Shown in pieces: positions 1 to 59,221 of a DNA stretch of 64,000 nucleotides. The stretch is from Streptomyces sp. NA02950 (GTDB lineage: Bacteria; Actinomycetota; Actinomycetes; Streptomycetales; Streptomycetaceae). How positions within the stretch are numbered: the first letter of the stretch is position 1; each line of letters opens with the position of its first letter. The stretch is from the NCBI RefSeq assembly GCF_013364155.1, contig NZ_CP054916.1, forward strand, positions 9,454,001 through 9,518,000, read 5' to 3'. A program made the position numbers and the translations under genes. The notes under the pieces are model-generated. The model saw only the letters and a program-made list of their open reading frames with translations, was not told the DNA's origin and did not search any database.

Positions 1-1405
1 AGGCGGTCGCGATGACGGCGAGCTTGTTGAGGACCACACTGTTGGAGCCCCAGCCATACTCGTGGTCCGCAAGCGGCATCCCGTACGCCTGGCCTTGTGC
101 CGTCTGGAGGTACCGGTCGGCGGCGGCCACCACCGAGGCACGGGCGGCGTTCCGGTCGCCGTCCGGCAGCGGGCTGGGCACGGTCGCCAGGTCGAGCCGG
201 CCGAGCGCGGCGACCTGCTGCCAGCCGAACCCTGAGGGCGGGAACGGGTCAGCGGTCGCATACGGCGAGGCCCGCGGTTCGTCCAGAAACGCCTGCTCGC
301 CGGTGGTGATGAACAGCTCAGCGGCTGCCCAGTAGAACTCGTCGGTGACGTCGCGGTCGTCGTACGGGCCACCGCCGGTCGTGTCGTCCTTGCTGGCGTA
401 GACCTCCCGGTGGGCCTGCGCGGCGGTACGGGCGGCGGTCAGGCAGCGCTGGGCGAAGCCGGGATCGAAGGGCACGTACAGCCGGGCGCCCTGTGCGGCG
501 GCCGCGGCCAGGTTGAGCGTCGCCGCCGTGGACGGCGGGTGCAGATGACGCGGCTGCGGATCCTGGTCCGGAGCCATCGGCAGTCCGGTCCAGCTGTCGT
601 CGTGCACTTTGTGGTGCGCCATTCCCGCGAGGGGCTGACCTGCGGGTACCTGCATGCGCAGCAGGAACTCCAGCTCCCAGCGCGCCTCGTCGAGGATGTC
701 CGGAACGCCGTTGCCGTGCTCGGGAACGCGCAGGTCGCCGTCGCCCGGCGGACCCTGGCGCCTGCGGGGCGCGGTCAGCGTCCGCTCGTACAGGCTGAGG
801 AGTTGGTAGGTGGCGATGCCGCCGTTGACCACGTACTTGCCCTCGTCCCCGGCGTCGTACCAGCCGCCGCTCACGTCCAGCTGATAATCGCCGGCACCCG
901 GCTGGCAGGGCACGCTGGTGTCGCCCTGGTTGGGGGCGACTCCGATGTGTCCGGCCGGACGTGCGTATCCGGGCGCCAGCGCGTCGGTGATGGGGATGCC
1001 ACTGCGCTGGAGGTAGAAGAAGTGCAGGGCGTCGGAGCGCAGCTGGTCATAGACGGTGGGGGAGATGTCGAACGGGTAGCTGGTCTGCCCGTCGACGATC
1101 AGCGTGTATCCGGTGCCGGCCTGCGTCACCGCGCTGAAGTCCAGCGTGTGCACCTGCTGCCCGGAGGATGTGTCCAGCCCGGCGGCCGGCGTTGTGGTGC
1201 CGGAGGTGACGGTGACGCCGGCGCTGTTGTTCACCTGCCAGGGGATCGATCCGGGCGCGTCGGTCACGACCGTCGCGTGTTTCGGTCCGAACGGCAGATA
1301 ACCGACCTGGTTGACCCGCACCGGCGGGCCGGTGTCCGGTACGTAGGGGGGCACCGGATCGCCGCCTGTGAGGGACACGCCGCCCACGCAGAACACCCAG
1401 GCCGC
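1..1405 (-). pseudogene. GH9 endoglucanase, 5'-truncated, runs off the left edge
   Basis: The frame is open without a stop from about 1405 to the left edge. It reads a cellulase Ig-like N-terminal domain ([19 protein letters not shown]) and then the start of a glycoside hydrolase family 9 catalytic barrel. DAGDEGKYV, which carries the catalytic-base aspartates, lies near 836-856, and HEYGWGSNS lies near 55-75. The first readable residues ([13 protein letters not shown]) resemble the last strand of a CBM4/9-type binding module, so the signal peptide and most of that module are missing. The sequence then changes abruptly to a TPR regulator fragment on the other strand. GH9 enzymes cut beta-1,4-glucans outside the cell; this copy has no secretion signal in the window and is probably dead. 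The catalytic acid region lies outside the window. Confidence 0.82.
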
Positions 1406-1429
1406 CCTCCGGAAGAATCCTGTGAACGC

Positions 1430-2257
1430 ATGGACTACGTGCTGGAAAACCCTGCCAATGTCGACGCTGTGGCTGTTGCAGGTATCCGTGAAAGACTCCG
1501 TCAGCTTGATGCGGCCTATGATCAATCACCCTCAACTGCACTTCTTGGGACAACGGGGCAACTCCATGGACAGGTTGCATATCTGAGAGAGCGCGCGAGG
1601 AGTTTTCCCGCCAGGCGATCCCTTTACGAAGTTGAGGATGAATCAGCGATCTTCATGGGGCAACTCGTTTGGGATGTGAGCCAACGGCGAGACACTGCTG
1701 GGCCGATGGCCTACTTCGACGAAGCTGTTCATGCGGCACGCAACTCGCGAGACCTATGCGCTGAATCCTACGCAATTCTCCGGAAGGGATACGTGGCCCT
1801 ATATGGAGAGAAGGATCCTGGAAAAGGCCTGGCCTTGCTCAGGAATCGGCCACTGTGGCAAGAGGCTGCAGCCCCTCTCTGTCTGGCCTGGCCCTCCTGC
1901 ATGTCGCGGAAGGGTGTGCCATGATGCGAGACCTCGCTCGCTGCCAAGCCGCCTTGAAAAATGCGGAGCAGCAGTTTCGTCGCATCGACGCAGATGACAT
2001 CGGCGCCGAATATCACTCCGGCGGTGAATACGATCGAATGGCTGGATCCTGCTATCTCTTCTTGGGCTTGCCGACCCGTGCGCAAAACTCTTTGGAAGCA
2101 ACCGTCGACTTTTTGGCCCGCAAGAAGAAGAGTCAAGCCCTTACTCTCGGAAGCCTGACTCTTTCCTACATACGTCAACGTAAACTTGACGAAGCTGCGG
2201 CAATGATGCACAAGACGATCGATGCCGTAGAAGTGACACGCGGCGGAGGTGGGTTGA
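1430..2257 (+). pseudogene. TPR-type transcriptional regulator remnant (XRE/BldD-like C-terminal half), frameshifted
   Basis: Two plus-strand frames join into one alpha-helical repeat protein. Residues from [20 protein letters not shown] to about 1835 are in one frame; from about 1838 the continuation (CSPSLSGLALLHVAEG ... LTLSYIRQRKLDEAAAMMHK) is in another. One base is missing near 1836, where GCCTTGCTCAGG should read into AQE. The sequence resembles the C-terminal tetratricopeptide half of Streptomyces helix-turn-helix regulators. The HTH end is absent and the 3' end stops at GGGGLN. The fragment is less GC-rich than its surroundings. It abuts the truncated GH9 gene, so one recombination event may have removed both 5' ends. 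Confidence 0.75.
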
Positions 2258-2371
2258 ATGCGACCGCCCCGCATCGGCGTCCGGTCCGGGAGCAACGGCT
2301 CGATCCGTGCCCAACTGCGCATCAGTCAACGACACATCAGGCCAACGATCCGATGATCCAAACGTTACGCC

Positions 2372-3472
2372 CTAGGTGCGCTTGAGCGTGGGCATGAGGC
2401 GGAGGGCGTTGTCACGGTTGATGCCGCGGCGTTGGCGGTTGGTGAGGACGGGGTCGGTCTCGATGGCTGGCACCGTGTAGCTGGTGATGATGTCGGCGGA
2501 GGCCGCCGGCCAGTCGGTGCCGAAGAGGATCCGGTCGGCACCGGCGGTGGCCACCAGCGTGGCCGAGGGGGCCAGCGGGCCCGCTGTGTCGTAGTAGAAG
2601 CGGTGGAGATAGTCCTGTACACGGGCAGCATCGAGGGGTGGGGTGCAGAAGCTGCCGAAGGCCTTCATGCGGGTGGCGATCTGAGGGAGGAACCCGCCGG
2701 CGTGTGGCAGGACGACTGACAGGTGCGGGTAGCGGTCGAGTGTCCTGGTACGGATCAGGTTCACGGCGGCACGCGTGGAATCCAGCAGGAAATCGCACAT
2801 GAAGTTCGGGATTCCGGGGACGGTGGGCACGCCGGGTGGTCCGCCCGGGAGGTCGAGCGGGTGGGTGAATAGGACCGTGGCGCGTTCGTCGAGTTCCGCG
2901 AGGAAGCGGTCGTAGGAGGGATCACCGAGGTAGATACCGTTGTAGTTGGCTTTCACGCTGACTCCAACGGCACCGAGCTTGTCGAAAGCGTGTTGGAGAG
3001 CCCACGTGGTCACGTCGGGATGGTCCAGGACAGCAGGGCCGAGGATCGCGAAACGGCCCGGGTGTGCGGCCACCAGCTCGGCCAGTGCCTCGAAGACGAC
3101 AGTGAGGCCTTCCCTGGCCTGCGCGGCGGAGCGGTACCGGTCCTGCATGGTCGGGTTGAGGACCGCGGTTGCGATGCCCACCCGGTCCATCAGCGCCAGA
3201 GTGGAGTCCAGATCCCAGCGCGCCCACCACGGCAGTTCCTGCCGCCGCAGCAGGCCCTCACGCTCGGCCCAGTCGACCCAGGCCGGAGCGGTGAAATGGT
3301 GGTGGACGTCAATCCTTGCCCGGCCGGCGTTGTCACCGCTCTGCGAGCCCTGCGGCACCGCTTCCTCCCTGGCCAGCGCACTGGCCCCGCCCGTCGCGGC
3401 GACGGCGGTCGCCACCGCACCACCGGTGATCAGCAGACTGCGCCGACTCATGGCCTCGGTTGATTCCGGCAT
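2372..3472 (-). CDS. Amidohydrolase-family metal-dependent hydrolase with a Tat signal
   Basis: A 366-residue TIM-barrel amidohydrolase (amidohydro_2 type, related to aminocarboxymuconate-semialdehyde decarboxylase). An N-terminal twin-arginine signal (SRRSLLITGG, followed by an Ala-rich hydrophobic stretch) points to folded export. Metal-site motifs are DVHHHF (residues 55-60), FTHP (about 202-205), LPHAGG and FGTDWP near the C-terminus. The start is placed at 3472; an in-frame ATG at 3451 (MSRRS) directly before the twin arginine is also possible, and the longer upstream extension is unlikely. It is a single gene, with the Smr gene upstream in the same orientation. The substrate cannot be read from the sequence; the reaction is a decarboxylation or hydrolysis of a small cyclic or carboxylic compound. 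Confidence 0.88.
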   Translation of the reverse strand: MPESTEAMSRRSLLITGGAVATAVAATGGASALAREEAVPQGSQSGDNAGRARIDVHHHFTAPAWVDWAEREGLLRRQELPWWARWDLDSTLALMDRVGIATAVLNPTMQDRYRSAAQAREGLTVVFEALAELVAAHPGRFAILGPAVLDHPDVTTWALQHAFDKLGAVGVSVKANYNGIYLGDPSYDRFLAELDERATVLFTHPLDLPGGPPGVPTVPGIPNFMCDFLLDSTRAAVNLIRTRTLDRYPHLSVVLPHAGGFLPQIATRMKAFGSFCTPPLDAARVQDYLHRFYYDTAGPLAPSATLVATAGADRILFGTDWPAASADIITSYTVPAIETDPVLTNRQRRGINRDNALRLMPTLKRT

Positions 3473-11807: not shown

Positions 11808-13928
11808 TCACCCGCTCGCGTCGGCGAGCTGGTATCCGAACCGGCTCGCGACCGTGACGAGTTCCGGGTGCCGGAACCGTGCGGCGAGCGTTTCGTCGCC
11901 GTACCACTCCCGCCACTCGCCGACCTTGCCGCGCCGCATGATGCGCGGCGGGCACCCGGCTGATCCACGGTCCTGGACGCCCTGCGCGGCAACGCGGTCC
12001 TCGTGCGCCCGCATCCGCACGTAGTCACTGCGTTCCACCGCCCGCGCGACCGCCTCCGGCGACCGCGTCAGGCCGAAGGCGCTCAGCAGTCGCAGTGTGA
12101 CCGCCGTCGGATCCGCCTTCAGATCCTCGAACCGTACGACCGCGGACCGGCGCAGTCCCGGCAGGGCGTCGTGCCAGGACCGGTAGAGGTCGACCCAGCC
12201 CTGAATGGGCGGCTCATCGTTGATGCCGAGACCGTCGAGGAACTCTTCGAAGGCTCCCTTTCCCTTGTCGCTGCCCGGCAGCCACATCGAGACGAAGCTG
12301 CGGAACCAGTGGTAGGAGGAGTGGATCGCGTCACGCGGATCACGCACCAGCAGGACCGCCCCGGCAAGCGGTACGTCGGTGAAATCCTGAGGTGGCAGGT
12401 GATTCTTGCAGAACCGCAGTTCGCCGGCCTTCGGCCGGACGCTGTTCGTCCGACGGTCATGGGCGTCCACGGCCGACAGCCTGCGGCGGTAGTCCACCGT
12501 TTCGGTGATGACCTGTGCGTCACCGCTCTCGGCGACCCGTTCGGTGTAGGGGTCGAGGTGGGCGAAGCCGAGTTCCATCAGGATGTTGCCGAGCAGCGCG
12601 TTCCCAGAGCCGGGGTAGGCGGCGACCACCACGTCCTGCTCTCCCAGCATCCTGACATTTTCCTTGTGTAGCTTCACGGGGTCGGGCATGGGCCCATGGG
12701 CTGTTGTCACGGATGTTCCTTGTCCCTTGTCGCGGCGTTCCATCGGCACGCCGTGCGGCCGGTTCTGCGCCTCCGCCCAGACGGCCGTCGCTATGTTTCC
12801 GCCGAATCCAAGGGCCAGCTGGGCGGTGACGCCGCCCTTGTGTGGTCCGGGCCGCGGCGCGAGCTGCGCATGCGGCTGCGTCAGCGGTGTGACGGCGGGC
12901 AGAAAGCCCTCGCGGTATGCGTTGGCGGTGATGACGGCCTCCAGCATCGGCGCGGTGCCCATGGTGTGGCCGAGCAGGGGCTTGAAGCCGAAGGCGACGG
13001 CTTGGTCGCCCAGATGGGCCAGGGCGGCCCGGTCCGTGTTGTCACATTCCCGGGTGCCCGTGGCGTGTGCCGCGTAGTAGCCGGCATCCCCCGGGGAGAC
13101 GTCGGCCATGCGCAGGGACGCGTCCAAGGCCCGCAGCACATGGGTGAAGGACGGCTCGATGCTGGTCGGGTGATAGGCGTCATTACTCATGGCGGTGCCC
13201 AGCAGCCGTGCATACGCCTCTTTGGAGGAGCGTGCGGACCGGGACAGGACCAGCGCGCCGGCTCCTTCCCCCATGACGAATCCGCTGGTTCCCGACTGCA
13301 GGGGACGGCAGACGTCGTCCGGAGACTTGTCGTACACGAGCGCCCCGAGCTCGGAGAACAGACGTATCTCCTCGCCGTCGGCACCGATGTCAGCGGAGAC
13401 GACCACCGCGTCCGTGGCGTCCCCCATGAGCAGCAGCCGGTGTGCGACGGCCAGTGCGTGCAAGCCGGAGGAACACGCGGTGCTTACGATGACGAAGGGG
13501 CCGTGGTAGCCGTGGCGCCGCATCACCTCGCTGCCGCTCGTCGTCCACGTCTGCTCGACGAACATGCGCCGGGCGCTGCCCTCTCCCCAAGCCAGGTACC
13601 GCGCGCGCAAGCGCTCCCGGTCGGCCCCTGTGGTGGCGTGCACCACCGCCACCCGCTCGCCCGGGCGCCATCCCCTGGCGAGCGCGTCGACGATAGCTTC
13701 ATCGGCGGCGGCGGTCACGGCCCGCGTGTAGCGGGTACCCGCCGGCTCCGGGGCGGCGTGTTCGGGTACGCGCGCGATCCAGCACGGATCGGGAAAACGA
13801 CCACCCAGTCCGGTGTGCGGCCGCGCGCTGGTCCGGCCGGAGAGCAGTCCGGCCCACAGCGGGTCCATCCCCCAGCCGTAGCCCGTGACCGCGCCGACGC
13901 CGAGGACGTCCACGGCCCGGGCGGTCAT
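11808..13928 (-). CDS. Ketosynthase-sulfotransferase fusion protein (putative phosphoramidate transferase)
   Basis: A 706-residue two-domain protein. Residues 1 to about 390 are a beta-ketoacyl synthase with a full catalytic triad: Cys152 in STACSSGLHAL, His288 in HATGT and His321 in GHTMG. Residues about 430-706 are a sulfotransferase fold: the 5'-phosphosulfate loop is AAYPGSGNALL (436-446), the 3'-phosphate motif is VRDPRDAIHSSYH (528-540), and RRGKVGEW is at 665-672. No acyl carrier protein is visible nearby. It is the last gene of the operon and its ATG overlaps the methyltransferase stop (ATGA). Because the operon seems to build a 3'-phospho-CDP-phosphoramidate, a PAPS look-alike, I infer that the sulfotransferase domain transfers a phosphoramidate, or possibly sulfate, to a ketosynthase-linked product. 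Confidence 0.93.
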   Translation of the reverse strand: MTARAVDVLGVGAVTGYGWGMDPLWAGLLSGRTSARPHTGLGGRFPDPCWIARVPEHAAPEPAGTRYTRAVTAAADEAIVDALARGWRPGERVAVVHATTGADRERLRARYLAWGEGSARRMFVEQTWTTSGSEVMRRHGYHGPFVIVSTACSSGLHALAVAHRLLLMGDATDAVVVSADIGADGEEIRLFSELGALVYDKSPDDVCRPLQSGTSGFVMGEGAGALVLSRSARSSKEAYARLLGTAMSNDAYHPTSIEPSFTHVLRALDASLRMADVSPGDAGYYAAHATGTRECDNTDRAALAHLGDQAVAFGFKPLLGHTMGTAPMLEAVITANAYREGFLPAVTPLTQPHAQLAPRPGPHKGGVTAQLALGFGGNIATAVWAEAQNRPHGVPMERRDKGQGTSVTTAHGPMPDPVKLHKENVRMLGEQDVVVAAYPGSGNALLGNILMELGFAHLDPYTERVAESGDAQVITETVDYRRRLSAVDAHDRRTNSVRPKAGELRFCKNHLPPQDFTDVPLAGAVLLVRDPRDAIHSSYHWFRSFVSMWLPGSDKGKGAFEEFLDGLGINDEPPIQGWVDLYRSWHDALPGLRRSAVVRFEDLKADPTAVTLRLLSAFGLTRSPEAVARAVERSDYVRMRAHEDRVAAQGVQDRGSAGCPPRIMRRGKVGEWREWYGDETLAARFRHPELVTVASRFGYQLADASG

Positions 13929-14998
13929 GAGCGGTCCTCCGCCTTGCGGGCGACGAGCAGGCCGCTGGCCGCTGACGGAACGGGCTGATCCAGCGGCAAC
14001 CGCTCCGTGAACGTGAACCCGGCACCGGCCAGCATGGACTCGTACTCGGCGCGCGTGTGGTTACCGCCCCCGACCGTGTCCACCAGCATGTTGAGGCACA
14101 TCAGCGCGGCATCCGCGGGGCCCGTCCCGTCGTCCTCGACGAACGCCTCCACGATGATCAGAGTTCCTCCACCGTCCAGCGCGGCATGGCACTTGCGGAG
14201 GATCCGCTCGTTAGTGTCCCGGTCGAACATGTGGAGGACGTTGCTCAAGGTGATCACGTCATAGCCGCCGGGAAGGGTCTCGTCGGCGATCAGGTCGCCG
14301 GGGTGTACGGCGATGCGGTCGTCCAGTCCGGCCTGCTTGAGGGTGCCGGCCGTGAGGGCACACACCGGTGGCAGGTCGAAGACCGTGGCGCGCAGGGCGG
14401 GGTGGAGTCGGCACAGCCGCACGGCCAGTTCTCCGGGGCCGCCGCCGACGTCGAGCAGGCCGCGATGGGGAGCGAAGTCGAAAGACCGTGCGACCGTGTC
14501 GGCGACGGGCCTCGACAATGAGCGCATCGCCTTCCAGAACAACTCGATCTCGTCGACGCCCGCGGTGGCGAACTTGGCGGACCTCTCGCGTACGCTCCAC
14601 ACGGTCGGCCGGTTCTCGCGCAGAGCGGTGAACAGTTCGCCCCACGCGGGGTACTGCTGTTCCTCGATCAGCCTGACGAAGCCGCCCAGCCAGAAGGGCT
14701 CCGAGGAGACCAAGTACCTGGAGCTGATAGGGCTGTTGCCGAACCGCTCGCCGTCCTCCTCGGGGATCAGTAACCCAAGCGAGACGCACGCCGTCACCAG
14801 CATGAGCGCGGGTCGCTTCCGAAGGACGAGAGCGGCTCCCAGCTCCTTGGCACTCATCGGCCCGCGTTGGGCCAGCACATCGAACAGACCTAGCCGTACC
14901 GCTGTGGCCAGCACCATCGTGCGCCGGAAACCGTCGAGCATGGACAGCAGTGGCTTGGCCGTGGTCGTCGCATGCGATGCTGATCTCACTTTGCTCAT
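13925..14998 (-). CDS. SAM-dependent O-methyltransferase (acetylserotonin/hydroxyneurospori type)
   Basis: A 357-residue methyltransferase. The N-terminal winged-helix dimerisation domain (LGLFDVLAQRGPMSAKELG) is followed by a Rossmann domain with SAM motif I LLDVGGGPGELAVRL, then FDLPPV and the late LSNVLHMFDRD segment. Such enzymes methylate hydroxyls on aromatic, polyketide or phospho-type products. The ATG at 14998 has GGAG immediately before it, too close to serve it; the GTG at 14989 is nine bases from that GGAG and may be the true start. It lies 86 bases after the kinase gene and overlaps the ketosynthase gene by 4 bases. It may O-methylate the phosphoramidate, or the scaffold. Confidence 0.92.
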   Translation of the reverse strand: MSKVRSASHATTTAKPLLSMLDGFRRTMVLATAVRLGLFDVLAQRGPMSAKELGAALVLRKRPALMLVTACVSLGLLIPEEDGERFGNSPISSRYLVSSEPFWLGGFVRLIEEQQYPAWGELFTALRENRPTVWSVRERSAKFATAGVDEIELFWKAMRSLSRPVADTVARSFDFAPHRGLLDVGGGPGELAVRLCRLHPALRATVFDLPPVCALTAGTLKQAGLDDRIAVHPGDLIADETLPGGYDVITLSNVLHMFDRDTNERILRKCHAALDGGGTLIIVEAFVEDDGTGPADAALMCLNMLVDTVGGGNHTRAEYESMLAGAGFTFTERLPLDQPVPSAASGLLVARKAEDRS

Positions 14999-15084
14999 CT
15001 CCAACTCGGTTTTGTGTCGGTGTACTCGGCATGGGGCATGCCGCTCGGGGCGTCCGCCCGGCCTGGCGGGCGGACGCCGGGGTT

Positions 15085-15639
15085 TCATCGCTCGGCGGGG
15101 TGCGCACCGCGTGCGGTGAGGACTTCGACGATTCGGTCGGCCGCCAGATCTGCGGTGGTCGCTCCGTGGTTGTCGATCACCAAGTCGGAGCTGCGGGGGA
15201 ACTCGGCCGTGGTGTGCACGCCCACTACGTGCGGCAGTGCGCGTCGTCCTGTGGTGGGATCCGGGTAGAAGTCCGCCTTCCCGGCCCTGCCCCTCAGTTC
15301 CTCGATCGGAGCCCGCATCCATACCTCGAGGTAGCCCGGAATGTTGGCACGGTTCCACCCATGCACCTCGTGGAACAGGGACACCGTGGCGCACAGCACG
15401 AGATGTCCCTGGGTGACCAGTTCATGGGTGAGCTGGGCATAGAACCGCGCCATGCGCAGCCGATCCCGTGGCTCGTAGCCCATGGGCACGGGCACGATCG
15501 CACGCAACCGGTCGCCGTCGAGCAGGATGGGGCACCGTCCCATGGCGGTGAGACGGTCCGCCACCAAGCGGGCCACCGTGCTCTTTCCCACACCGGACAT
15601 ACCCGTGATCCATACGGCCCCGCAATGGGCTTCGGTCAC
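15085..15639 (-). CDS. APS-kinase-like protein; probable CDP-phosphoramidate 3'-kinase
   Basis: A 184-residue P-loop kinase of the adenylylsulfate kinase family: Walker A GMSGVGKST (13-21), LLDGDRLR in place of the usual DGDNVR, and VVGVHTTAEFPRSSDLVID near the end. In sulfate assimilation this fold phosphorylates the 3'-OH of APS. In Campylobacter jejuni the homologue Cj1415 phosphorylates the 3'-OH of CDP-phosphoramidate. Two points favour the second role: no ATP sulfurylase is present, and the three genes just upstream match the other steps of that pathway. The GTG at 15639 is preferred because it overlaps the previous stop as GTGA; ATG 15648 is the alternative. Confidence 0.9.
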   Translation of the reverse strand: MTEAHCGAVWITGMSGVGKSTVARLVADRLTAMGRCPILLDGDRLRAIVPVPMGYEPRDRLRMARFYAQLTHELVTQGHLVLCATVSLFHEVHGWNRANIPGYLEVWMRAPIEELRGRAGKADFYPDPTTGRRALPHVVGVHTTAEFPRSSDLVIDNHGATTADLAADRIVEVLTARGAHPAER

Positions 15640-16445
15640 CGGCTCCATCTCCCCTCTTCCAGCGCGTCGCTTCCGATGCGTTCCCTGCGGTGAGCGGGGA
15701 GCGGCAGGCGGGACGCGGCATCGAGCCGACCGATGACCTCCAGGCCGGTTTCGGCGTCCGACGGGTGGTCGAACTCGTACCAGGGCCCTTCGACGGCCAC
15801 CGTCGCCACCGGCAGCAGGCGTCGTCGTACGAGGTGACGCAGCAGGCCCGTCATGTCCAGCCCCCGCACCGCCGGGTCGGCGTCGCGAGCCCGGCTCATC
15901 ACAGCCCACCCCACCGGACTGATCCGCAGCAGGCCCATGTACTGGCCCTGGACCTCCGCGGTGGTGGCGGGCCGGTCGCCTATGTCCACCAGCGCACCGG
16001 TCGCGTCACGAACGAAGGTCTCGGCGTCGTCGAGGGGGTCGGCGAACCGCCGGCTCCACAAGGCCTGCCAGTCGGGCTCATAGGCGATCGCGAGGTCGGC
16101 GTGGCACTCGCGGAGACGGCGCACGGTGGCGGGGGAGAACACGATGTCGCCGTAGACGACGAGTACCGTGCCGCGGGACAGCCATGGCTCAGCCGCCGCG
16201 AGCGACTCGACCATCGTCGTCTCGGCCCAGCGGTCGTTGCGGAAGACCGGCAGACCGATCTCGGCGAACGCCTCGGCTCGCCAGCCCGCGACTACGGACG
16301 TATCCACGACACCGGCTTCGCGCAGTGCCGCCACCTGACGCTCCAGCAGCGTCCGACCCCTGATCTCCATCAGACACTTCGGCCGGTCGGCGGTGGCCGG
16401 GCCCATGCGGGAGCCGCGGCCCGCAGCGAGCACCACCGCCCTCAT
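15636..16445 (-). CDS. Nucleotidyltransferase; probable CTP:phosphoglutamine cytidylyltransferase
   Basis: A 269-residue NTP_transferase-fold enzyme. The N-terminal signature is LAAGRGSRMGPATADRPKCL, with the nucleotide-binding glycine loop and the catalytic Lys; VVYGDIVFS holds a metal-binding Asp. The family includes phosphocholine and phosphonate cytidylyltransferases. In the C. jejuni phosphoramidate pathway Cj1416 joins CMP from CTP to phospho-glutamine. Its start overlaps the upstream hydrolase stop by 4 bases (ATGA) and its stop overlaps the kinase start by 4 bases (GTGA), so the three proteins are probably made in fixed ratio. The function is inferred from fold and neighbours; CTP specificity is not visible directly. 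Confidence 0.9.
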   Translation of the reverse strand: MRAVVLAAGRGSRMGPATADRPKCLMEIRGRTLLERQVAALREAGVVDTSVVAGWRAEAFAEIGLPVFRNDRWAETTMVESLAAAEPWLSRGTVLVVYGDIVFSPATVRRLRECHADLAIAYEPDWQALWSRRFADPLDDAETFVRDATGALVDIGDRPATTAEVQGQYMGLLRISPVGWAVMSRARDADPAVRGLDMTGLLRHLVRRRLLPVATVAVEGPWYEFDHPSDAETGLEVIGRLDAASRLPLPAHRRERIGSDALEEGRWSR

Positions 16446-17062
16446 CGGTCTTCACCCCGCAGGAGCCGCCGCACGGCGCAGACGTCGTCGGGGGCGAAGG
16501 GCTCCTCCCGCTCGGGATGCCACATGATTCCCTCGACTGGTGCCCTTTGGTGATGAACGGCTTCGATCACCGGCCCGCAGCGGGCAGTGGGAGCCAGTGG
16601 TGCCGGAGCCACGTACGCCGCCCAACGGTGGTAGCTGTTGACGGTCCGTGGGCCGCCGTCTGCGACACGGACCTCATGGCGGGTGGCGACGTGTCCATCG
16701 ACCCGGGCCAGCTGGCCGCCGAAGGCGTGCACCATGAGCTGCATGCCCCGGCACACACCCAGCACGGGGTGGCCCGTACGCAGGGCCCAGCTCAGAAGAG
16801 CCAGTTCGGTCCTGTCCCGGTCGGGTGAGGGACCGCCGTACGCGGCCAGGTCGTCGCCGCCGGTGAGCACGAGTCCGTCGAGTCCGAAGCCGACGGTAGT
16901 GCGCGCGGCCAGAACCGCGGAGTTGGGCAGCGGCACGGGCACGACCCCGCACCGCTCCAGGAAGGGGAACCAGCGGGCGTCGAGCGCATAGCGGTGTTCG
17001 CCGAACTCGTTGGCGGGCAGGCTGCGTTGAGTGACGCCCACCAGGGGCATGGTCCTGGTCAC
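16442..17062 (-). CDS. Class I glutamine amidotransferase-like hydrolase; probable gamma-glutamyl-CDP-amidate hydrolase
   Basis: A 206-residue peptidase-C26 fold. The nucleophile is Cys104 in LGVCRGMQLM, and the His-Glu pair is in MWHPEREE (His182, Glu184). The oxyanion segment VLTGGDD lies near 65-71. There is no synthetase partner, so it is a stand-alone hydrolase. In C. jejuni the equivalent Cj1417 removes the glutamyl group from glutamine-CDP-phosphoramidate and leaves CDP-phosphoramidate. The GTG start at 17062 overlaps the glutamine-kinase stop by 4 bases (GTGA); the longer frame to 17122 is rejected. Its 3' end overlaps the nucleotidyltransferase start by 4 bases. Confidence 0.9.
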   Translation of the reverse strand: MTRTMPLVGVTQRSLPANEFGEHRYALDARWFPFLERCGVVPVPLPNSAVLAARTTVGFGLDGLVLTGGDDLAAYGGPSPDRDRTELALLSWALRTGHPVLGVCRGMQLMVHAFGGQLARVDGHVATRHEVRVADGGPRTVNSYHRWAAYVAPAPLAPTARCGPVIEAVHHQRAPVEGIMWHPEREEPFAPDDVCAVRRLLRGEDR

Positions 17063-19416
17063 GGCAGTACCCTCACCAGACCGGCCGCCGCGTCGATCTC
17101 CAGAGCCCGCGCCCGCGACCACTGCCGGAACAGAGCCTCCCCGGCGCCGATCACGGCGGGAATGCCCAGTTCCAGGGCACGGATGGCCATGTGGGAGTTG
17201 GCCCCGCCGAACGCGGTCACCAGACCGACTATGCCCCGAGTGAACACCCAGTCATACCCCGGGTCGGCGCTGGCGATCGCGGCAATCGAGCCGTCCGGCA
17301 GGGCTCCTGCGTCGAGGTCGGCGACGGGCGCGGTCACGCGGCCCCGGGTGACGAAGTTGGGTTGGGTCTGCGGGATCTCGAAGCTCCACACGTCCTGCTC
17401 TCCGGTGAGCAGCGGGGGGAGCGTGAGGGAGCGGGTCACGTCATACTCCGCATGACCGCGAGCCACCGCCTCGTGCAGGACGCCGGCGTCCCGCTCCGGA
17501 CGGCCGGACAGGCTGGCGACGGTCTCGAGGGGGACGTGCGACATGTCGTCCGCGTCGCAGCCGTACCGCTCGCCGAGCAGCTTCACACCGGTGAGAACGT
17601 CGCTGAGAGGCGAGGTGAACTCGAACTTGCACCGCTCGCGGCCCCGGATGGCGGCGGATATAAAATCCAGCAGCCTGGCGGCGTCGAAGGTGAAGCCCTC
17701 ACGTGTGATGATCTCGTCCAGTCGTCTCATCTGCCGTGGGCCCATCCGGAACGGCTCGGTCTCCACCGGCTCACCGCCCGTCGGGGGCGGCGCCGACCAG
17801 TCGAAGTAGACCTCCGGCACCTCGTCGTAGCGCGGTGACAGGATGTCGTAGGTACCCGGCCGCAGATGGCCGTAGCGTTTGAGGAAGGCGTCCCGGCCCA
17901 AGTGGGTGAAGTCCCGGCGCAGCTCGCTGGTGACCAGGGCGAGGCCACTGACGTAGGCGGCGCGGTCGTTGGCCGAGAGGACGCCCTCGGCCACCAAATC
18001 GTTCAGCATGTCCATGGCGACGAAGGCGGCACGCGCGAGCGCGGCGAACGGGTACGTGCCGTACTCCCGGCACCTCTGCAGCTGGTCGGACAGGGCCGGT
18101 CCGCAGCAGCCGGGTACGGCCCCGCCGCAGCCCGGCGCATGGACACGTGCGACGCCCCCGGAGCGGAGCCGATCCAGACGGGCCAGGTCCTCCTCCCACA
18201 GGGGACCCTTCACCATTCGGTCGGTGAGCCGCCTCAGGCTGTCGGCCAGCAGGTCCCGCTCCGCCCGGCCGATTCCCGCGTCGGCCAGCTCGGCCAGCCG
18301 TTCGCGTGTGCGGAAGCAGTGGGCGGACACGACGATCCGCGATTCCAGTTTGTCGTGCAGATGGGGCTGCGCGACGAGGCGTTCGAGCCTGTGCTCGACC
18401 AGCCGCCGGGCGAGAGGGCATGGTACGTCACGCGGGACGAAGGACGTCACACTCGCCGCGACGTCCACGTAGGGAAGCCCCGAGAAGTCCACGAGCAGCG
18501 GGACCCCGCGCACATCCCGGTAGCCGTACCGCGCTCGCGCCCTGGCCCAGACCTGATCGGTGATCAGGTAACGGTACAGGGAGAGGGACAGCGCCCGGGG
18601 ACGCAGCCCGATCAACTCGGCTGGGTTCCAGTCGGGCATCACGCCGAACACCGCGCGGCCCGAGAGCAGCCTGGGGCGGTCGGTGGCCGATTGAGCGACC
18701 AGCCGCGCCGTCTCGGCCAAGACGGTGCGGTGCCGGTCCGCGCCTACCGGCGTGGCGACCGAGGTCAGCCGCCGCACCTGGAGCAGGACCAGGACACCCG
18801 TCGCGGACACCGCGAACTCCGCTTCGAGGAAATCCTCGCCCGTCAGGTCGATCAGCTCGTCCAGCAGCCGCCACACCGACCCCACGAGGGGCGACGGCGC
18901 CAGCGCGGGCGGCACCGAGGCTGAGCCGTACGCGATGCGCAGTCCGTTCTCCCGGCCGCCGGTCACGGCGTCGACGCGGTCGCTCTCGCTCCAGTTCACC
19001 ACACGGTACGGGGCGCCGCTGCTGGCGTCGCACGAGAACGCCACCCCGCTGGCGTGGACGTCCGTCAACTGCGGCTGGATCAGCACCTGATCGAGTTCGC
19101 GTTCCTCGTCGTACGACGCGAACACCTCCTCGACAGCCGCTGCTACGGCCCGTCGACCCCGCCGTCCGGGCAGGGAACGGAACCGCCCGGCCTGCGATCC
19201 CGTCGCGCTGTCCTCCGTCACCGCGCTGCTGCGTACGATCACCGGGTCCGCGCCCCAGTCCTGCTCGGCCAGCTCGTCCAGCAGCCGTTCCGGATCGGCA
19301 CGCCAGTCGCGCAGCGACGCGTACAGCAGGGGCAGGATCCGGCCCGTGGTGAGAAGTGGTGTCATGCGTGCGAGTGACTCAGCCTTGGTGCCGAGGCGGA
19401 CGCGGGTCTGGCTCAT
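17059..19416 (-). CDS. PEP-synthase-like kinase; probable L-glutamine (amide) kinase
   Basis: A 785-residue homologue of the Cj1418 type. The N-terminal ATP-grasp part carries VIVRSSAVTEDSATGSQAG (59-77). A middle domain has PDWNPAELIG (261-270) and RYLITDQVW, characteristic of the group found in surface-glycan phosphoramidate loci. The C-terminal swivelling domain carries the phospho-accepting His742 in GGANSHMAIRA. Unlike PEP synthase it lacks the PEP-binding barrel. Such enzymes move the beta-phosphate of ATP via phosphohistidine to the side-chain nitrogen of glutamine, making the P-N bond. The ATG at 19416 overlaps the methyltransferase stop by 4 bases (ATGA); the frame to 19488 is not used. 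Confidence 0.9.
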   Translation of the reverse strand: MSQTRVRLGTKAESLARMTPLLTTGRILPLLYASLRDWRADPERLLDELAEQDWGADPVIVRSSAVTEDSATGSQAGRFRSLPGRRGRRAVAAAVEEVFASYDEERELDQVLIQPQLTDVHASGVAFSCDASSGAPYRVVNWSESDRVDAVTGGRENGLRIAYGSASVPPALAPSPLVGSVWRLLDELIDLTGEDFLEAEFAVSATGVLVLLQVRRLTSVATPVGADRHRTVLAETARLVAQSATDRPRLLSGRAVFGVMPDWNPAELIGLRPRALSLSLYRYLITDQVWARARARYGYRDVRGVPLLVDFSGLPYVDVAASVTSFVPRDVPCPLARRLVEHRLERLVAQPHLHDKLESRIVVSAHCFRTRERLAELADAGIGRAERDLLADSLRRLTDRMVKGPLWEEDLARLDRLRSGGVARVHAPGCGGAVPGCCGPALSDQLQRCREYGTYPFAALARAAFVAMDMLNDLVAEGVLSANDRAAYVSGLALVTSELRRDFTHLGRDAFLKRYGHLRPGTYDILSPRYDEVPEVYFDWSAPPPTGGEPVETEPFRMGPRQMRRLDEIITREGFTFDAARLLDFISAAIRGRERCKFEFTSPLSDVLTGVKLLGERYGCDADDMSHVPLETVASLSGRPERDAGVLHEAVARGHAEYDVTRSLTLPPLLTGEQDVWSFEIPQTQPNFVTRGRVTAPVADLDAGALPDGSIAAIASADPGYDWVFTRGIVGLVTAFGGANSHMAIRALELGIPAVIGAGEALFRQWSRARALEIDAAAGLVRVLP

Positions 19417-20258
19417 CGCGGGGCCTTCCCGCCCGGCGCTTTCCGCTGCGCGATCCACGCCCGCGTCACATAAGGTACGTCGATCCACGTGCCGGCCTCC
19501 TTGCGCACCAACTCACGGATGGCGTCCAGCACGTCGCCGAAGCCGGCTCCGGCCTGCTGGCCCAGGGTGGCGTGGGAGGTCCAGGCCTCGCACCAGGCTT
19601 CGGCGGGCAGCCGAAAGACCTGCTCGCCTGTGATCGTCACCGGTGTCTCGAACAGACCGCTCGCCACGATGAGGCCGGTCTGGTCGGTGCGCCGGATCCC
19701 GTACGTGAAACCCGGCACCCTCTCATGGATCTCTTCCTCGATCCGTGCCTGCAGCGGGTCCTCCAGGTTCCGGTGGTTCCACAGACAGGCGAAGTGGCCG
19801 GAGGGTTCGAGGATGCGTGCGGTCTCGCGCAGCGCGGCGGGACGGTCCGTGCGGTCGAACGACGAGCCGAAGGTCACCAGGGGGTAGACCCCCGCAGGAC
19901 GTGCGGACTCCTCCCCGGTGCCCTCGTACCAGGACACGTCGGCGTAGCCTTCGGTGCGCGACTGTCCCACCGCGCGCATGGAGGCGGTCGGCTCGACTGC
20001 GTCGACCCGGAGTTCGGCTTCGAGCAGCGGAACGGTCAGGTGTCCCGAGCCGGCGCCGATGTCGCACACCAGGTCGCCCGGCCCCACCCCGGCGGTGCGC
20101 AGCACGCTGGTGACGACGGCGGGCACGTAGTCGGCGCGCTGCCGGTAGCTCGTCGCGTAGGGCGAGTAGTCGAAACGGGTCCCGTCCACGTCCGTCGCCA
20201 CCGCGGCCGGTACGTTCCGCGGGCGGTCGGACGGCGACATCGCGAGGTCTTGGGTCAC
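19413..20258 (-). CDS. Class I SAM methyltransferase, first gene of the phosphoramidate operon
   Basis: A 281-residue Rossmann methyltransferase. SAM motif I is VCDIGAGSGHLTVPLLE (about 63-79), the acidic motif II ends DAVEPT, and PLVTFGSSFDRTD marks motif IV. It resembles methyltransferases linked to phosphoramidate loci (Cj1419/Cj1420), which are thought to make the O-methyl ester. GTG at 20258 is supported by AGGAG six bases upstream. It opens the operon: all genes down to 15085 overlap by 4 bases. The exact acceptor is unknown. Confidence 0.88.
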   Translation of the reverse strand: MTQDLAMSPSDRPRNVPAAVATDVDGTRFDYSPYATSYRQRADYVPAVVTSVLRTAGVGPGDLVCDIGAGSGHLTVPLLEAELRVDAVEPTASMRAVGQSRTEGYADVSWYEGTGEESARPAGVYPLVTFGSSFDRTDRPAALRETARILEPSGHFACLWNHRNLEDPLQARIEEEIHERVPGFTYGIRRTDQTGLIVASGLFETPVTITGEQVFRLPAEAWCEAWTSHATLGQQAGAGFGDVLDAIRELVRKEAGTWIDVPYVTRAWIAQRKAPGGKAPR

Positions 20259-21000
20259 ATCAGTCTCCTGAAGGCGGGTGTACAGATGTTTCAGGGCAGA
20301 GGTGGGACGGTCGCTGGTCTTGTGAATCCCCGGATCTGGCGTCGGCAGCGGACGGGCGGGAAACAGCGCCCCATCGGTACCCTCTGCCGGGCCACTCCCT
20401 CACCGGTATCCTTCCGGCCGCCGGGCCCTGGTTGCCCACGCCGTCCACGAGCAGCCTGGAAGCACTGTCGTGCCGACGGCTCGCCGACTCAGCCGAAGGC
20501 GTCTTCAGCGCGTGTCGGCCGCTTCGCCCGCGTTGCGCGGTGTCGATGGGCGTACGGCGACCAAGGCAACGGAGCTGCAGGCCTTGTCGAAGGCCGTGGA
20601 CATGACCGACGGTTCGGCGTTCTCGGCGCCGAGCAGTCCGAGGAAGGGCGTCGATCCGGCCGAGCTTCAGCCGCGCTGCCCGACGGCCCCACGGGTAACG
20701 CTCGGCTCCCTGTGTCATATGTGTCTCCATGGGCTCGAGTCGCGGGAACGCAGTACGGGTGCTCCCGCCGCCCTGAATCACCGGGAACAATGGTGGAGTT
20801 GAGTTCTTCAGTGCTGCGAGTCGCCACGCATGACACCAGCATGAGGACGCGCCTTGTGTGCGGCTTGACACATGCCTTGTTCCGATGACGGAACCACGAC
20901 TTAGTACTCCAGTCGCAGTTCGCTATCGCCGCTGGTCAGGGGTCTGTTTCCGGGTGTAGCGAGCTGACTTTCCGTCATGTGATGGAAGTTTGTGACCGGC
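20259..21000 (-). promoter_or_regulatory. Upstream region of the operon with a perfect palindrome
   Basis: About 740 bases without a supported gene. GTTCCG-ATGA-CGGAAC at 20879-20894 is a perfect 6+6 inverted repeat and a candidate operator. A weak minus-strand frame (ATG near 20718 with GGAG upstream) has no recognised homology and may be the leader or a gene remnant. The operon promoter is probably here, but no clear -35/-10 pair stands out. Confidence 0.4.
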
Positions 21001-21975
21001 GATGCGTGGCAGAGCTGACGGTCGCCAGGTGGGCGAGTTCTACTCCTCCCTCACCGCTCGTTCGGACGCGCTGCTCGAGCCGGCTGATGCTGTCCTGTGC
21101 GGCGACGGGTGAGATCACTGGCTGAACTGTCGCTGGTGGGCGAACGCCGCCGCGGCCACGGAGGGCTCTACGGGGCGGTGGCTCGCGGAGGTACCGACAC
21201 CGGCCGGCTCCGGCGGGCCTTGGCCGCGGTGCCCTTGCCGCGAGCCGCAGACGGCCGGCTGGTCCTCGCCGTCGACGTCACCTGCTGGCTCCGGCCCGAC
21301 GCCCACACCTCACCACAGCGGATCCTGTGCCCCACCTACGGGCGGGGCAAGGACCAGCACATCCCCGTCCCCGGCTGGCCTTACGCGATCATCTGCGCGC
21401 TCGAGCCCGGCCGCAGCTCGTGGACCACGCCACTGGACGCGCTCCGCCTCACGCCCGGGGACGATACCGCGACTGCCACCGCCCGGCAGCTGCGCGATCT
21501 GCTTGAGCGGCTGATCATCGCCGGGCAGTGGCAGGCGGCGACCCGGACATCCTCGTCATCGCGGATGCCGGGTACGACGCACCCCGCCTCGCCTGCCTCC
21601 TGGGCGACCAGCCCGTGCAGGTGCTCGCCCGGATGCGTTCCGACCGCGTCCTGCGCAGGGCCGTCCCGCCCCGCCAACCCGGGACCCTGGGCCGCCCGCC
21701 CCGGCACGGCGGCGAGTTCGTCTTCAGCCAGCCCGACACCTCGGGCACCTCGGACACCGAGACCGTCACCGACACTCGCCTCTACGGCAGCACCGCCACC
21801 GCCCGTTCCTGGGACCGGCTCCATCCCAAACTGACCCATCGCTTTTCCTGGGCCGCGGCCGACGGCACTCTCCCGATCATCGAGGGGACGGTGATCCGCC
21901 TGGCCACCTGCCCAGCGGTGCCAGCCCCAAGCCGGTCTGGCTGTGGTGGTCCGACACCGACGCCACGGGGGTGTC
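21001..21975 (+). pseudogene. IS701-like transposase remnant, copy 2
   Basis: Pieces in three frames rebuild the same transposase as at 5922: VGEFYSSLTARSDALLEPAD (21027-), then RRRGHGGLYGAV and VLAVDVTCWLRPDA, then ILVIADAGYDAPRLA up to SWAAADGTLPIIEGTVIRL. There are frameshifts near 21110 and 21535. The C-terminal part with the catalytic Glu is missing: the sequence is cut near 21975 where the Tn7-like remnant begins. Confidence 0.8.
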
Positions 21976-41560: not shown

Positions 41561-41912
41561 ATGAGCGAGGCCATCACCGAGCACGAGGTTGTGGACGAGC
41601 CGATCGCCGAGTCGGCTGCGGAGGCCGTGTCGGACGAGCGGTTGATCGCGATGCTGGTCGACCGCGCCTGTACTGACGGGCTGCAGTTGACCGGGGCGGG
41701 TGGGCTGCTGCAGCAGCTGGCCAAGCGGGTCCTGGAGTCCGCCCTGGAGGGCGAGATCACCGGCCACCTCGGCTGTGACAAGCACGACGTGGCGGGCCGG
41801 AGCAGCGGCAACTCCCGTAACGGCACCCGCTCGAAGACCGTGCTGACCGACGTCGGCCCGGTCGAGGTGAAGGGTGCCCCGCGATGTGGCCGGCGCCTTC
41901 GAGCCGCAGATC
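41561..41912 (+). pseudogene. IS256-family transposase N-terminal fragment
   Basis: AAGGAGG precedes ATG 41561. It reads LLQQLAKRVLESALEGEITG and LTDVGPVEVKGA, then shifts frame near 41880 to PRDVAGAFEPQIV. It is cut at 41912 and followed directly by a DUF5131 fragment in the same frame. Confidence 0.82.
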
Positions 41913-42065
41913 GTCGGGCCCTTGGACGGGCTGGACCTGACGGGCATTCACTGGGTGATCGCCGGAGGCGAGTCCGGCCCCCGCTTCCGCCCCATGGAGC
42001 AGGAGTGGGTCACGGGGATCCGGGACGCCTGCCTGCAGGCCGACGTGGCCTTCTTCTTCAAACTT
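41913..42065 (+). pseudogene. DUF5131 fragment A (middle C-terminal part)
   Basis: GPLDGLDLTGIHWVIAGGES, then RFRPMEQEWVTGIRDACLQA and DVAFFFK. It matches the late part of DUF5131 (compare LSGIDWVIVGGESGSAHRPL in the intact gene). It stops after FFFK, where unrelated sequence starts. The missing tail (QWGGRTPKASGRHLQGRTWD) is found at 50036. Confidence 0.8.
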
Positions 42066-42109
42066 CTCTGCACCAAGCCGATGGGCACGGTCGCTGTCGG
42101 TGGTGCGCG

Positions 42110-42985
42110 GTGAGTACCGGAACGGCTATCGAGTGGACCGAGGTCACCTGGAATCCGGCGACCGGGTGCGATCGCATCTCGCCGGGCTGCGATCACTGCT
42201 ATGCGCTGACCCTGGCGAAGCGGCTGAAGGCAATGGGCCAGGAAAAATACCAGCGCGACGGTGATCCGCGGACCAGCGGCCCTGGGTTCGGGGTCACGGT
42301 GCACGAGGACTCCTTGTTCGATCCGCTGCGGTGGCGTCGGCCGCGCAAGGTGTTTGTGAACTCCATGAGCGATATCGGCCACGCTCGTGTCCCCAGGGAA
42401 TTCGTGGCCAGGATCTTCGCGACGATGGCGCTGGCGCCGCAGCACCAGTTCCAGGTGCTCACCAAGAGGCCACGGCGTCTGCGTTACCTGCTGGAATCGC
42501 AGAAGTTCGTGGACGCGGTCTGGGTCGAGATGGAGCGATTGTCGACGGACGGTGCTGTTCCGCTGCCGAGGCCCGTGCGTGAGGACGTGCGCAAGCGTGT
42601 CGCCAATTGGGGCGCCTTGAGTCCGTGGCCGTTGTCCAACGTGTGGGTTGGCACCTCGATCGAGTCGGATGAGTACTGCTGGCGGGCTGACGAGCTGCGG
42701 GGTATCCCGGCTGCTGTCCGGTTCTTGTCGCTGGAGCCGTTGCTGGGGCCGGTGCCGTCCCTGGAGCTGTCGGGGATCGACTGGGTGATCGTCGGCGGCG
42801 AGAGCGGCTCGGCTCACCGGCCGCTGGACTTGGCCTGGGTCCGCGACATTCGAGACCGGTGTGTCGAGCTTCGGGTGGCTCTGTTCTTCAAGCAGGTCGG
42901 TGGGCTGACGCCGAAGGCCGGCGGTCGTCTGCTCGATGGCCGGACCTGGGATGAGTATCCCGCCGCGGCGGCCGTGGTGGGGTGA
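42110..42985 (+). CDS. DUF5131 protein (phage Gp37/Gp68-like, three-Cys motif)
   Basis: A 291-residue protein. The three-Cys motif is Cys20, Cys27 and Cys30 (GCDRISPGCDHCYA), similar in shape to a radical-SAM cluster site; other conserved parts are KVFVNSMSDIGHA, VLTKRPRRL, WVGTSIES and WDEYP. The family is paired with TcmP proteins, and a TcmP gene lies at 50110. The biochemical role is unknown; a mobile or defence-type role has been suggested for such pairs. Start GTG 42110 directly follows the inserted DNA behind fragment A. It is intact and of normal length. Confidence 0.9.
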   Translation: MSTGTAIEWTEVTWNPATGCDRISPGCDHCYALTLAKRLKAMGQEKYQRDGDPRTSGPGFGVTVHEDSLFDPLRWRRPRKVFVNSMSDIGHARVPREFVARIFATMALAPQHQFQVLTKRPRRLRYLLESQKFVDAVWVEMERLSTDGAVPLPRPVREDVRKRVANWGALSPWPLSNVWVGTSIESDEYCWRADELRGIPAAVRFLSLEPLLGPVPSLELSGIDWVIVGGESGSAHRPLDLAWVRDIRDRCVELRVALFFKQVGGLTPKAGGRLLDGRTWDEYPAAAAVVG

Positions 42986-48763: not shown

Positions 48764-50021
48764 CGAATACCGCCGCAATATCGTCGGCGTCGTACTTCGC
48801 TGACCACCGGACCGGCTCTGTCGGCCGCTGGTAGTGCTCGGCAAGCTGATCGAGCAGGTCGTCCAGGCGCACTGCCGTGTAGAGGGCCGTGGTGCTGATA
48901 TGCGCGTGCCGCAAGATGGTCTGCACCTCCACCAGCGTCAGCGCCGGGTCACGTGCCATCCGTGTCGCCGCGGTGTGCCGAAGATCGTGCAGCGTCCAGT
49001 TCGTGCCCAGCTGTTCGTCGGCGCGCTGAAGGATCCGTCGCGTCGCCCAGTAGCTCAACGGCCTCGGCTCGCCTCGCCGGGTACGCCAGACGGGATCGCC
49101 ACCCGCGGGCAGGCCCGCTTCCTCGAGGTAGCCGGCCAGGTAGGCCAGGGCTTCCGGGGAGACGGGGACCGCCTGCCGCAGCCGGGTCCCCTTGGAGATC
49201 ACCCACAGCTGGCCCTTGGTCCATTCGACGTCGCTGAGCTGGACACCCAGAAGTTCCGAGGCCCGGGCACCGGAAGAGACGTAGCACGCCAGCAGGGCCC
49301 GGTCACGGCTACAGCGCATCGCGGCGAACAACTCCTCCCACTGCGAGTCGGGGATCGCCCGCGGCTGACGGGCCGGGACCTTCGGCCGCAGCCGTGCCCG
49401 CCGATGCGGCCTGGCGGACTCGATCGGCGACACGTGCGCCAAGGCCCGTCGGCGGGATCTGCTGTCCGGCACCGGATTGACGACAGGTCCCCGCCCGAAG
49501 TGCAGGTGGAAGGAGTAGAAGCCGTGCACCACCGACAAGTTGTGCGCAATAGTGCGCGGCGCATACCCGGACCCCAGATTCGGCTTGCCGGTCTTCGGAT
49601 TGACCGTCCCCGCTGCCAAGGCATCCACGCGGCGGCGTTGCCGCTGCGGGTTCGGCGCCGACCGCAGCCACCCCACCAGCGTGGCGGTCTCGGCCTCGGT
49701 GGCCTGCTCCCACCCGACGTCGACCGCCCACAGCAACCGGAACCACCGCAGCAGGTCGTGACCGTAGCTCCGACAGGTCAGCGGTCTCACATCGCCCAGC
49801 AGCAGATCCCGCAGGTACCGGCTGACCGGCTCGATCTCCCGACTCGCTCCATCGACCACCACGTACGGCAGCGACGTCACCGTGCCTTCAACCACGGCGC
49901 CGACCCGCGGCAGATCCGTCCGGCCGTCCATCAAATCCCGATGCGCACCAGTGAACTCAGCATTCCCAAACATAAGGACAGATGCTTCATGCCCGTGCCA
50001 ACTGATCGCCAGCAGATCCAC
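48753..50021 (-). CDS. Tyrosine recombinase (TnpA-like)
   Basis: A 422-residue integrase: SAM-like N-terminal domain (about 100-210), then the catalytic domain with SSGARASELLGVQLSD (Arg), ISKGTRLRQAVPV (Lys), LHDLRHTAATRMARD (His, Arg) and ILRHAHISTTALYTAV (His, Tyr). It is complete. The true start may be the ATG at 49973 (MFGNAEFTGAHRD), because 49974-50021 contains no clear ribosome site. The gene begins only 16-65 bases from the point where DUF5131 sequence resumes, as expected for an element's terminal gene. Confidence 0.92.
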   Translation of the reverse strand: MDLLAISWHGHEASVLMFGNAEFTGAHRDLMDGRTDLPRVGAVVEGTVTSLPYVVVDGASREIEPVSRYLRDLLLGDVRPLTCRSYGHDLLRWFRLLWAVDVGWEQATEAETATLVGWLRSAPNPQRQRRRVDALAAGTVNPKTGKPNLGSGYAPRTIAHNLSVVHGFYSFHLHFGRGPVVNPVPDSRSRRRALAHVSPIESARPHRRARLRPKVPARQPRAIPDSQWEELFAAMRCSRDRALLACYVSSGARASELLGVQLSDVEWTKGQLWVISKGTRLRQAVPVSPEALAYLAGYLEEAGLPAGGDPVWRTRRGEPRPLSYWATRRILQRADEQLGTNWTLHDLRHTAATRMARDPALTLVEVQTILRHAHISTTALYTAVRLDDLLDQLAEHYQRPTEPVRWSAKYDADDIAAVFGDR

Positions 50022-59147: not shown

Positions 59148-59221
59148 GGTGATCACTCTCGCCCAGAAATCGGGACTCCCGTTCGATCGACAAGTCTCAA
59201 GATCGATACGACAACAGCTAC
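59148..59221. repeat. Solo end of the copy-2-type IS5 element
   Basis: The reverse complement from 59221 reads GTAGCTGTTGTCGTATCGAT then CTTGAG, close to the right end of the element at 53134 (GTGGCTGTTGTCGTTCCGAT then CTTGAG). The upstream GACTCCCGTTCGA also matches. It is bordered by TGA (59222-59224), a TNA-type site. The rest of the element is gone. Confidence 0.8.

Follow-up and report, generated by a model that had tools for sequence, protein, structure and literature searches.

What would a Streptomyces make with genes that resemble the donor-making part of the O-methyl phosphoramidate (MeOPN) pathway of Campylobacter jejuni, given that phosphorus-nitrogen (P-N) bonds are rare in biology? 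The question is raised by seven adjacent minus-strand open reading frames (ORFs), all open, at 20258-11808 of a 64,000-nucleotide stretch of Streptomyces sp. NA02950 (contig NZ_CP054916.1, positions 9,454,001 to 9,518,000), hereafter the window; their place agrees with that given in an initial annotation made from the sequence alone. With a probability of roughly 0.6, they are read here as a biosynthetic operon for a small molecule bearing an O-methyl-phosphoramidate group. At about even odds, the operon also reveals a sulfotransferase-fold family of actinomycetes, with more distant forms in other phyla, that switched from sulfate to phosphoramidate and that, together with an upstream methyltransferase (MT1), completes a six-enzyme module, here tied to a ketosynthase for an undescribed P-N product. 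In the order of the operon, its features are:

19413..20258, minus strand: MT1, S-adenosylmethionine (SAM)-dependent methyltransferase, 281 aa (PF13649)
17059..19416, minus strand: GK, putative glutamine kinase, 785 aa, with a PPDK_N ATP domain and a C-terminal swivelling-His domain (NF004508/PRK05849, PF01326, PF00391)
16442..17062, minus strand: GAT, class-I glutamine amidotransferase (GATase), gamma-glutamyl-CDP-amidate hydrolase-like (best match NF045546; PF07722)
15636..16445, minus strand: NTP, nucleotidyltransferase, 269 aa, proposed phosphoglutamine cytidylyltransferase (PF12804)
15085..15648, minus strand: APSK, kinase resembling adenosine 5'-phosphosulfate (APS) kinase, 187 aa, proposed CDP-phosphoramidate 3'-kinase (PF01583)
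13925..14998, minus strand: OMT, O-methyltransferase with dimerisation domain, 357 aa (PF00891, PF08100)
12759..13928, minus strand: KS, ketosynthase part of a KS-ST fusion, about residues 1-390 (PF00109, PF02801)
11808..12728, minus strand: ST, sulfotransferase-fold part of the KS-ST fusion, residues 401-706, proposed phosphoramidate transferase (PF00685)
20259..21096, minus strand: leader upstream of the operon, without a convincing gene (ORF and promoter scans)

A single transcription unit is likely because the genes overlap or lie close together: by their coordinates, the MT1/GK, GAT/NTP and OMT/KS-ST junctions each overlap by 4 bases and NTP/APSK by 13 bases, and the gap between APSK and OMT is 86 bases. 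Refined starts are the ATG at 19416 for GK, 15648 for APSK and 14998 for OMT; for the GATase, whose ORF is open from 17122, the start is inferred to be the GTG at 17062.

In the proposed pathway, GK would phosphorylate the amide nitrogen of L-glutamine, the nucleotidyltransferase would join the N-phosphorylated glutamine to CMP taken from CTP, the GATase-like hydrolase would strip glutamate to leave CDP-phosphoramidate, and the APS-kinase-like enzyme would add a 3'-phosphate. The ST domain would then move the phosphoramidate from this look-alike of 3'-phosphoadenosine 5'-phosphosulfate (PAPS) onto an acceptor hydroxyl and MT1 would methylate the phosphoramidate oxygen, with the KS and the PF00891 OMT supplying, loading or tailoring the acceptor. 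The steps from GK to APSK are predicted from homology with characterised Campylobacter enzymes, and those of ST and MT1 from linkage, fusions and residues.

Enzymes of the phosphoramidate donor

In C. jejuni, Cj1415-Cj1418 are described as converting glutamine, ATP and CTP to CDP-phosphoramidate 3'-phosphate (PMC11800397), and a 2019 review gives O-methyl phosphoramidate on sugars as identified only in Campylobacter so far (PMC6429109). The MeOPN system (Cj1415-Cj1418, Cj1421/Cj1422) has the same four donor-making enzyme types as the operon, and a methylated phosphoramidate is likely the outcome here as well; the Streptomyces operon differs in that no capsule genes are seen with it and in that a putative transferase of sulfotransferase fold and MT1 lie inside one operon. 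GK matches the glutamine kinase model NF004508/PRK05849 (EC 2.7.3.13) at 770 bits against a cut-off of 501, over residues 26-808 of the 809-aa ORF, and PF01326 and PF00391 are its only Pfam matches at E 0.001; a phosphoenolpyruvate (PEP)-binding barrel is absent, and the swivelling His is His742 of 785 aa, within GGANSH. The model is labelled 'hypothetical protein' by NCBI, and Cj1418 is presumably a member of it.

The best NCBIfam match of the GATase is NF045546 (gamma-glutamyl-CDP-amidate hydrolase) at 93.9 bits, and since this is below the cut-off of 250 the protein is described only as like that family. Its class-I triad is present as Cys124/His202/Glu204 of the 226-aa ORF, equivalent to Cys104/His182/Glu184 when counted from the GTG at 17062. 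The NTP protein belongs to PF12804 (6.9e-24), CTP:phosphocholine cytidylyltransferase is among its PDB matches (E 2.2e-9), and a homologue of this nucleotidyltransferase fold accompanies GK in 29 of 35 GK loci; no model specific to a phosphoglutamine cytidylyltransferase is found among the 25 NCBIfam matches shown. APSK has the APS-kinase family fold by PF01583 (74.5 bits, cut-off 21.1; 1.2e-20) and lies below the NCBIfam cut-offs for APS kinases (apsK, 75.9 versus 138.7; PRK05541, 124 versus 127).

Families, architecture, residues and gene linkage in several phyla support the reading that the four enzymes very probably turn glutamine, ATP and CTP into the CDP-phosphoramidate 3'-phosphate donor; their assignment to the Campylobacter families is by sequence models rather than by comparison with the Cj proteins themselves. 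This agrees with the initial annotation, which had recognized the donor-making part of the Campylobacter pathway and had correctly named the catalytic residues His742 and Cys104/His182/Glu184, the latter given the GTG start; the family that it assigned to each gene is also that of Pfam and NCBIfam, with all NCBIfam matches other than GK below their curated cut-offs. That the genes simply encode PEP synthase, GMP synthase or an ordinary APS kinase was considered and rejected, as GK lacks the PEP barrel and scores far above the cut-off of its own model, and as the genes are linked in several phyla.

The sulfotransferase-fold domain and MT1

Knowledge of the C. jejuni transferases comes from gene deletions, and no assignment is given for Cj1419/Cj1420 (PMC11800397). 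The operon offers candidates for transfer and O-methylation, steps for which that account gives no shown enzyme reaction in Campylobacter. The ST domain (PF00685, 1.7e-15) is modelled with a predicted local distance difference test (pLDDT) score of 88, and its structure matches sulfotransferases bound to 3'-phosphoadenosine 5'-phosphate (PAP). With the PAPS-dependent cytosolic sulfotransferases of PF00685 it shares the fold, the 3'-phosphonucleotide motif and the catalytic His; among aligned ST family members, Arg529 is kept in 85/85, Ser537 in 84/85 and His510 in 79/85, which together make up the 3'-phosphate motif and the base-like or catalytic His. The difference lies in the 5'-phosphosulfate loop, the Lys of which matters for PAPS chemistry: where estrogen sulfotransferase has Lys, the operon protein has Gly440, and the 85 aligned family members all have Gly (73), Ala (9) or Ser (3), with no Lys or Arg at 438-442 in any of them. 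The ST of locus L034 and the more distant STs of L019, L022, L023 and L039 likewise have no Lys or Arg in that loop. Lys is kept in 10 of 16 distant STs compared (the distant matches P0128, P0213 and P0225 were left out) and lost in six, all of the L019 type; of these six, only P0217, which is identical to the L019 gene, is known from a P-N locus.

Because the Lys is lost, the 3'-phosphonucleotide motif is kept, the proposed donor is PAPS-like and no other protein of the operon is a candidate for the transfer, the 'sulfotransferase' is probably a phosphoramidate transferase with 3'-phospho-CDP-phosphoramidate as its donor. The annotation of this domain as a sulfotransferase stands for fold and PF00685 membership, but probably not for sulfate as the group transferred.

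The wider occurrence of MT1 and ST was assessed by running hidden Markov models (HMMs) of the window genes over 35 GK loci and then two more; with the truncated L010 and the duplicate L038 dropped and the window added, 36 rows were obtained. APSK is present in 19 of the 36. MT1 accompanies it in 14 of them and is absent from all 17 rows without APSK (Fisher 3e-6, kinship ignored), so that its homologues in 13 other GK loci are every one accompanied by APSK; ST occurs in seven of the 19 and again in none of the 17 (Fisher 0.008, kinship ignored). Excluded from these counts were weak matches to MT1 (L009, L063) and to APSK (L044) and, for ST, a weak PF13469 match in L005 and, in L009, a PF00685 gene about 3 kb upstream of the block; in the loci without APSK, the search for ST used three HMMs, and Pfam for part of them. 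The stretches of L014 and L020 end just after MT1, and the missing ST there is uninformative. Fusions point the same way: in one homologue, P0122, ST is fused to MT1 (57% and 76% identity), and the longest contig is of 47437 bases both for this fusion and for the GK P0003, while 34 of the 120 listed GKs (of 1777 relatives) include a fused PF01583 domain. For 18 of 84 close ST homologues, the longest contig has the same size as that of one of the 120 listed GKs.

The complete set of six enzymes recurs with major facilitator superfamily (MFS) genes in two other actinomycetes. In L034 (Streptomyces G544) the order GK-APSK-MT1-GAT-NTP is joined by an MFS gene and by ST, and neither KS nor OMT is matched. 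In L062 (actinomycete G1280) GK-GAT-NTP-APSK is accompanied by a divergent MT1-ST pair (48% and 39% identical to the window proteins), after which come two MFS-domain ORFs with a regulator-like ORF between them. On their co-occurrence with APSK and on the fusions, MT1 and ST are assigned to the phosphoramidate module, which is a new point of this analysis; the upstream methyltransferase, present as initially annotated, would accordingly be part of a conserved module and not an addition to the four genes. Among the neighbours in loci without APSK are a CDP-alcohol phosphatidyltransferase gene in Agrobacterium vitis and, in Vibrio, a gene resembling CDP-glycerol glycerophosphotransferase, which would suit direct use of CDP-phosphoramidate. 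L013 departs from this pattern in having APSK together with a PF04464 protein.

Several observations weigh against this reading of the operon and its module, the last-named PF04464 protein beside APSK among them. Both GATase and APSK score under the curated NCBIfam cut-offs, loss of the Lys is by itself no proof of a new donor, and the fusion P0122, with Ala at the Lys site, has Arg one position before it. The co-occurrence is clustered on the GK tree, where only 2 well-supported independent pairs are found (none in the opposite direction), so a sign test cannot reach significance. Furthermore, the nearest GKs on the tree by path, those of Streptomyces L032 and L033, are accompanied by GAT and NTP alone, and the APSK loci L006, L013, L024, L043 and L046 have no clear ST in the stretches scanned.

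A further family with sulfotransferase-like motifs, of 413 aa and with no clear Pfam family, lies upstream of GK in L014, L015, L016 and L018, loci from metagenome-assembled genomes of Acidobacteriota and Myxococcota. PF06990 is matched in two of the four (E 1.1e-4 and 1.1e-3), at 0.46 in one and not at all in one; the PDB match is heparan sulfate 2-O-sulfotransferase (E 0.007), and the family was left out of the ST counts because its model is poor (pLDDT 47). In all four loci a B12-binding radical SAM gene (by Pfam) accompanies the 413-aa gene upstream of the P-N block (e.g., L014:1710-4360 and L016:7254-9905), and these loci are possibly another P-N product line.

Acceptor, product and rival explanations

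The KS looks catalytic, as its full triad Cys152, His288 and His321 is present. Its nearest curated model is AmcF, the type II polyketide synthase (PKS)-like KS of cispentacin, which is described as working with AmcG in a single C2 elongation of a carrier-bound chain (PMC10698177); the operon KS differs in scoring 135 bits against a cut-off of 325, in being fused to ST, and in having no gene for AmcG, an acyl carrier protein (ACP) or other carrier, or a ligase in its operon. That it builds, loads or acylates the acceptor is a guess. No second KS-ST fusion is found among the 8 matches listed, and tblastn found no KS or OMT homologue in the related loci searched, a set without the plasmid loci and L062. 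For KS relatives on plasmids, of which 8 out of 835 were listed, the highest identity among those listed is 38% (Mycolicibacterium), and the neighbouring genes are uninformative.

Membership of the KS in nearby PKS genes was considered and rejected: KS homologues at 9413502-9421658 of the contig are more than 44 kb away with no link to the operon, and nothing ties to it a PKS-like ORF, recognized by eye in L065, that ends about 28 kb from it. The region holding these genes (L064/L065, contig positions 9411000-9454000, outside the window) has large ORFs that by eye resemble PKS and nonribosomal peptide synthetase (NRPS) genes, and its FabF-type KS at 9420468 is 33% identical to the operon KS. 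A defence system was also rejected: PADLOC matched only the two methyltransferases, both against a portion of mad2 (E 8.5e-13 and 2.9e-9), and this is taken as a shared methyltransferase fold.

A small-molecule product, as first suggested for this operon, is plausible because two related operons carry MFS transporter genes. Among openly licensed papers, no published actinomycete pathway with this gene set and no sulfotransferase-like phosphoramidate transferase was found by title or abstract, in line with the earlier statement that none of such composition was known from Streptomyces. Phosmidosine (PMC6429109) and (S)-cinnamoylphosphoramide, for which inhibition of butyrylcholinesterase is reported (PMC6212887), are small-molecule P-N compounds of Streptomyces. 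A literature search found no gene-cluster paper for either compound, and a link to the operon is only a lead. Phosmidosine presumably carries an O-methyl group.

The main rival is a sulphostin-like product, in which ST would be a genuine sulfotransferase that uses PAPS to sulfonate nitrogen, and the product would be a phosphosulfamate (N-sulfo on P-N) of the sulphostin/phaseolotoxin type. Sulphostin, made by Streptomyces, contains a phosphosulfamate (PMC11968843), a 2021 review presents nothing as known of its biosynthesis (PMC9113183), and both it and phaseolotoxin of Pseudomonas are P-N natural products that also require a sulfo group; the sulfotransferase fold of ST is clear. This rival is nevertheless unlikely, as the Lys site is lost throughout the ST family, and as a PAPS-dependent ST would leave the operon without a transferase for its activated donor and the 3'-kinase without a use. 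In addition, the seven genes include none for ornithine handling or for a lactam (the phaseolotoxin genes lay outside the sequence comparison), and two methyltransferases would be superfluous for sulphostin as its structure is given in PMC11968843.

Transfer of the methyl phosphoramidate to a surface glycan or other polymer, Campylobacter-style, is improbable. Some relatives do adjoin glycosyltransferase or polysaccharide genes; however, a Pfam scan of the operon and 19 flanking ORFs (2 of the 19 without a Pfam match; 59 ORFs were picked in the window) found no capsule or glycan genes, which bears out, over the ORFs scanned, the initial remark that capsule genes are absent. The KS fusion and the OMT are natural-product-like, and the MFS genes of L034 and L062 and the adenylation and condensation domains beside GK in L035 also speak against a glycan. 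Less probable still is a decayed or silent remnant: the 9.62-Mb contig ends about 100 kb from the window, insertion-sequence (transposase) and integrase genes flank the operon on both sides, and no sigma-70-type promoter site was found in the leader at 20259..21096, but such a scan covers Streptomyces promoters poorly, all seven frames are open, and the catalytic residues of GK, GATase and KS are kept. The reading as an operon for an O-methyl-phosphoramidate small molecule is thus preferred, and the combination of GK, APSK, MT1 and a Lys-less ST provides a genome-mining handle for P-N natural products in actinomycetes.

Distribution of GK and other loci

GK is rare and patchy. In whole-genome searches at E 1e-40, with the window's own genome included, it was found in 7/392 genomes of the genus (a second draw of genus genomes gave the same matches), in 2/394 of the class sample and in 1/396 of the phylum sample, the last being the window's own genome; it was also found in 2/200 genomes of the family of G888. 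Of 7992 candidates scored in the protein search, 1777 are GK relatives, 120 of which were listed, and 14 plasmid records carry relatives. One phage record of 9.5 kb (MT837632.1), from human faeces and labelled Bacteriophage sp., holds at 676-3006 a GK relative of 29.6% identity.

Other GK loci differ in their neighbours. In Streptomyces G732 (L035:1929-5044), the neighbours of GK, GAT and a cytidylyltransferase are an AMP-binding enzyme and an NRPS-like carrier-condensation protein, with no APSK, which makes this locus a candidate for a further P-N natural product. On an Agrobacterium vitis plasmid (L041:8908-13997), GK, GAT and cytidylyltransferase are followed by a LysE exporter and the CDP-alcohol phosphatidyltransferase, without APSK; a near-identical GK occurs in Rhizobium (L008), and the pair represents a candidate compact P-N locus. 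A second nucleotidyltransferase-like stretch within the GK-containing frame suggests a fused extra domain in L007, L009, L021, L042 and L044, and in L012, L017, L036, L040, L045 and L063 GK is without detectable GAT, cytidylyltransferase or APSK in the stretch covered, perhaps indicating another use of the kinase.

Elsewhere in the window, a DUF5131 domain and a short match to Mutator transposase share one ORF at 41561-42985, two adjacent ORFs with phage-integrase domains at 46349-50021 suggest an integrated mobile element, and an RHS-repeat protein with a putative type VII secretion system signal domain at 59153-63205 adjoins a 185-aa ORF without a Pfam match.

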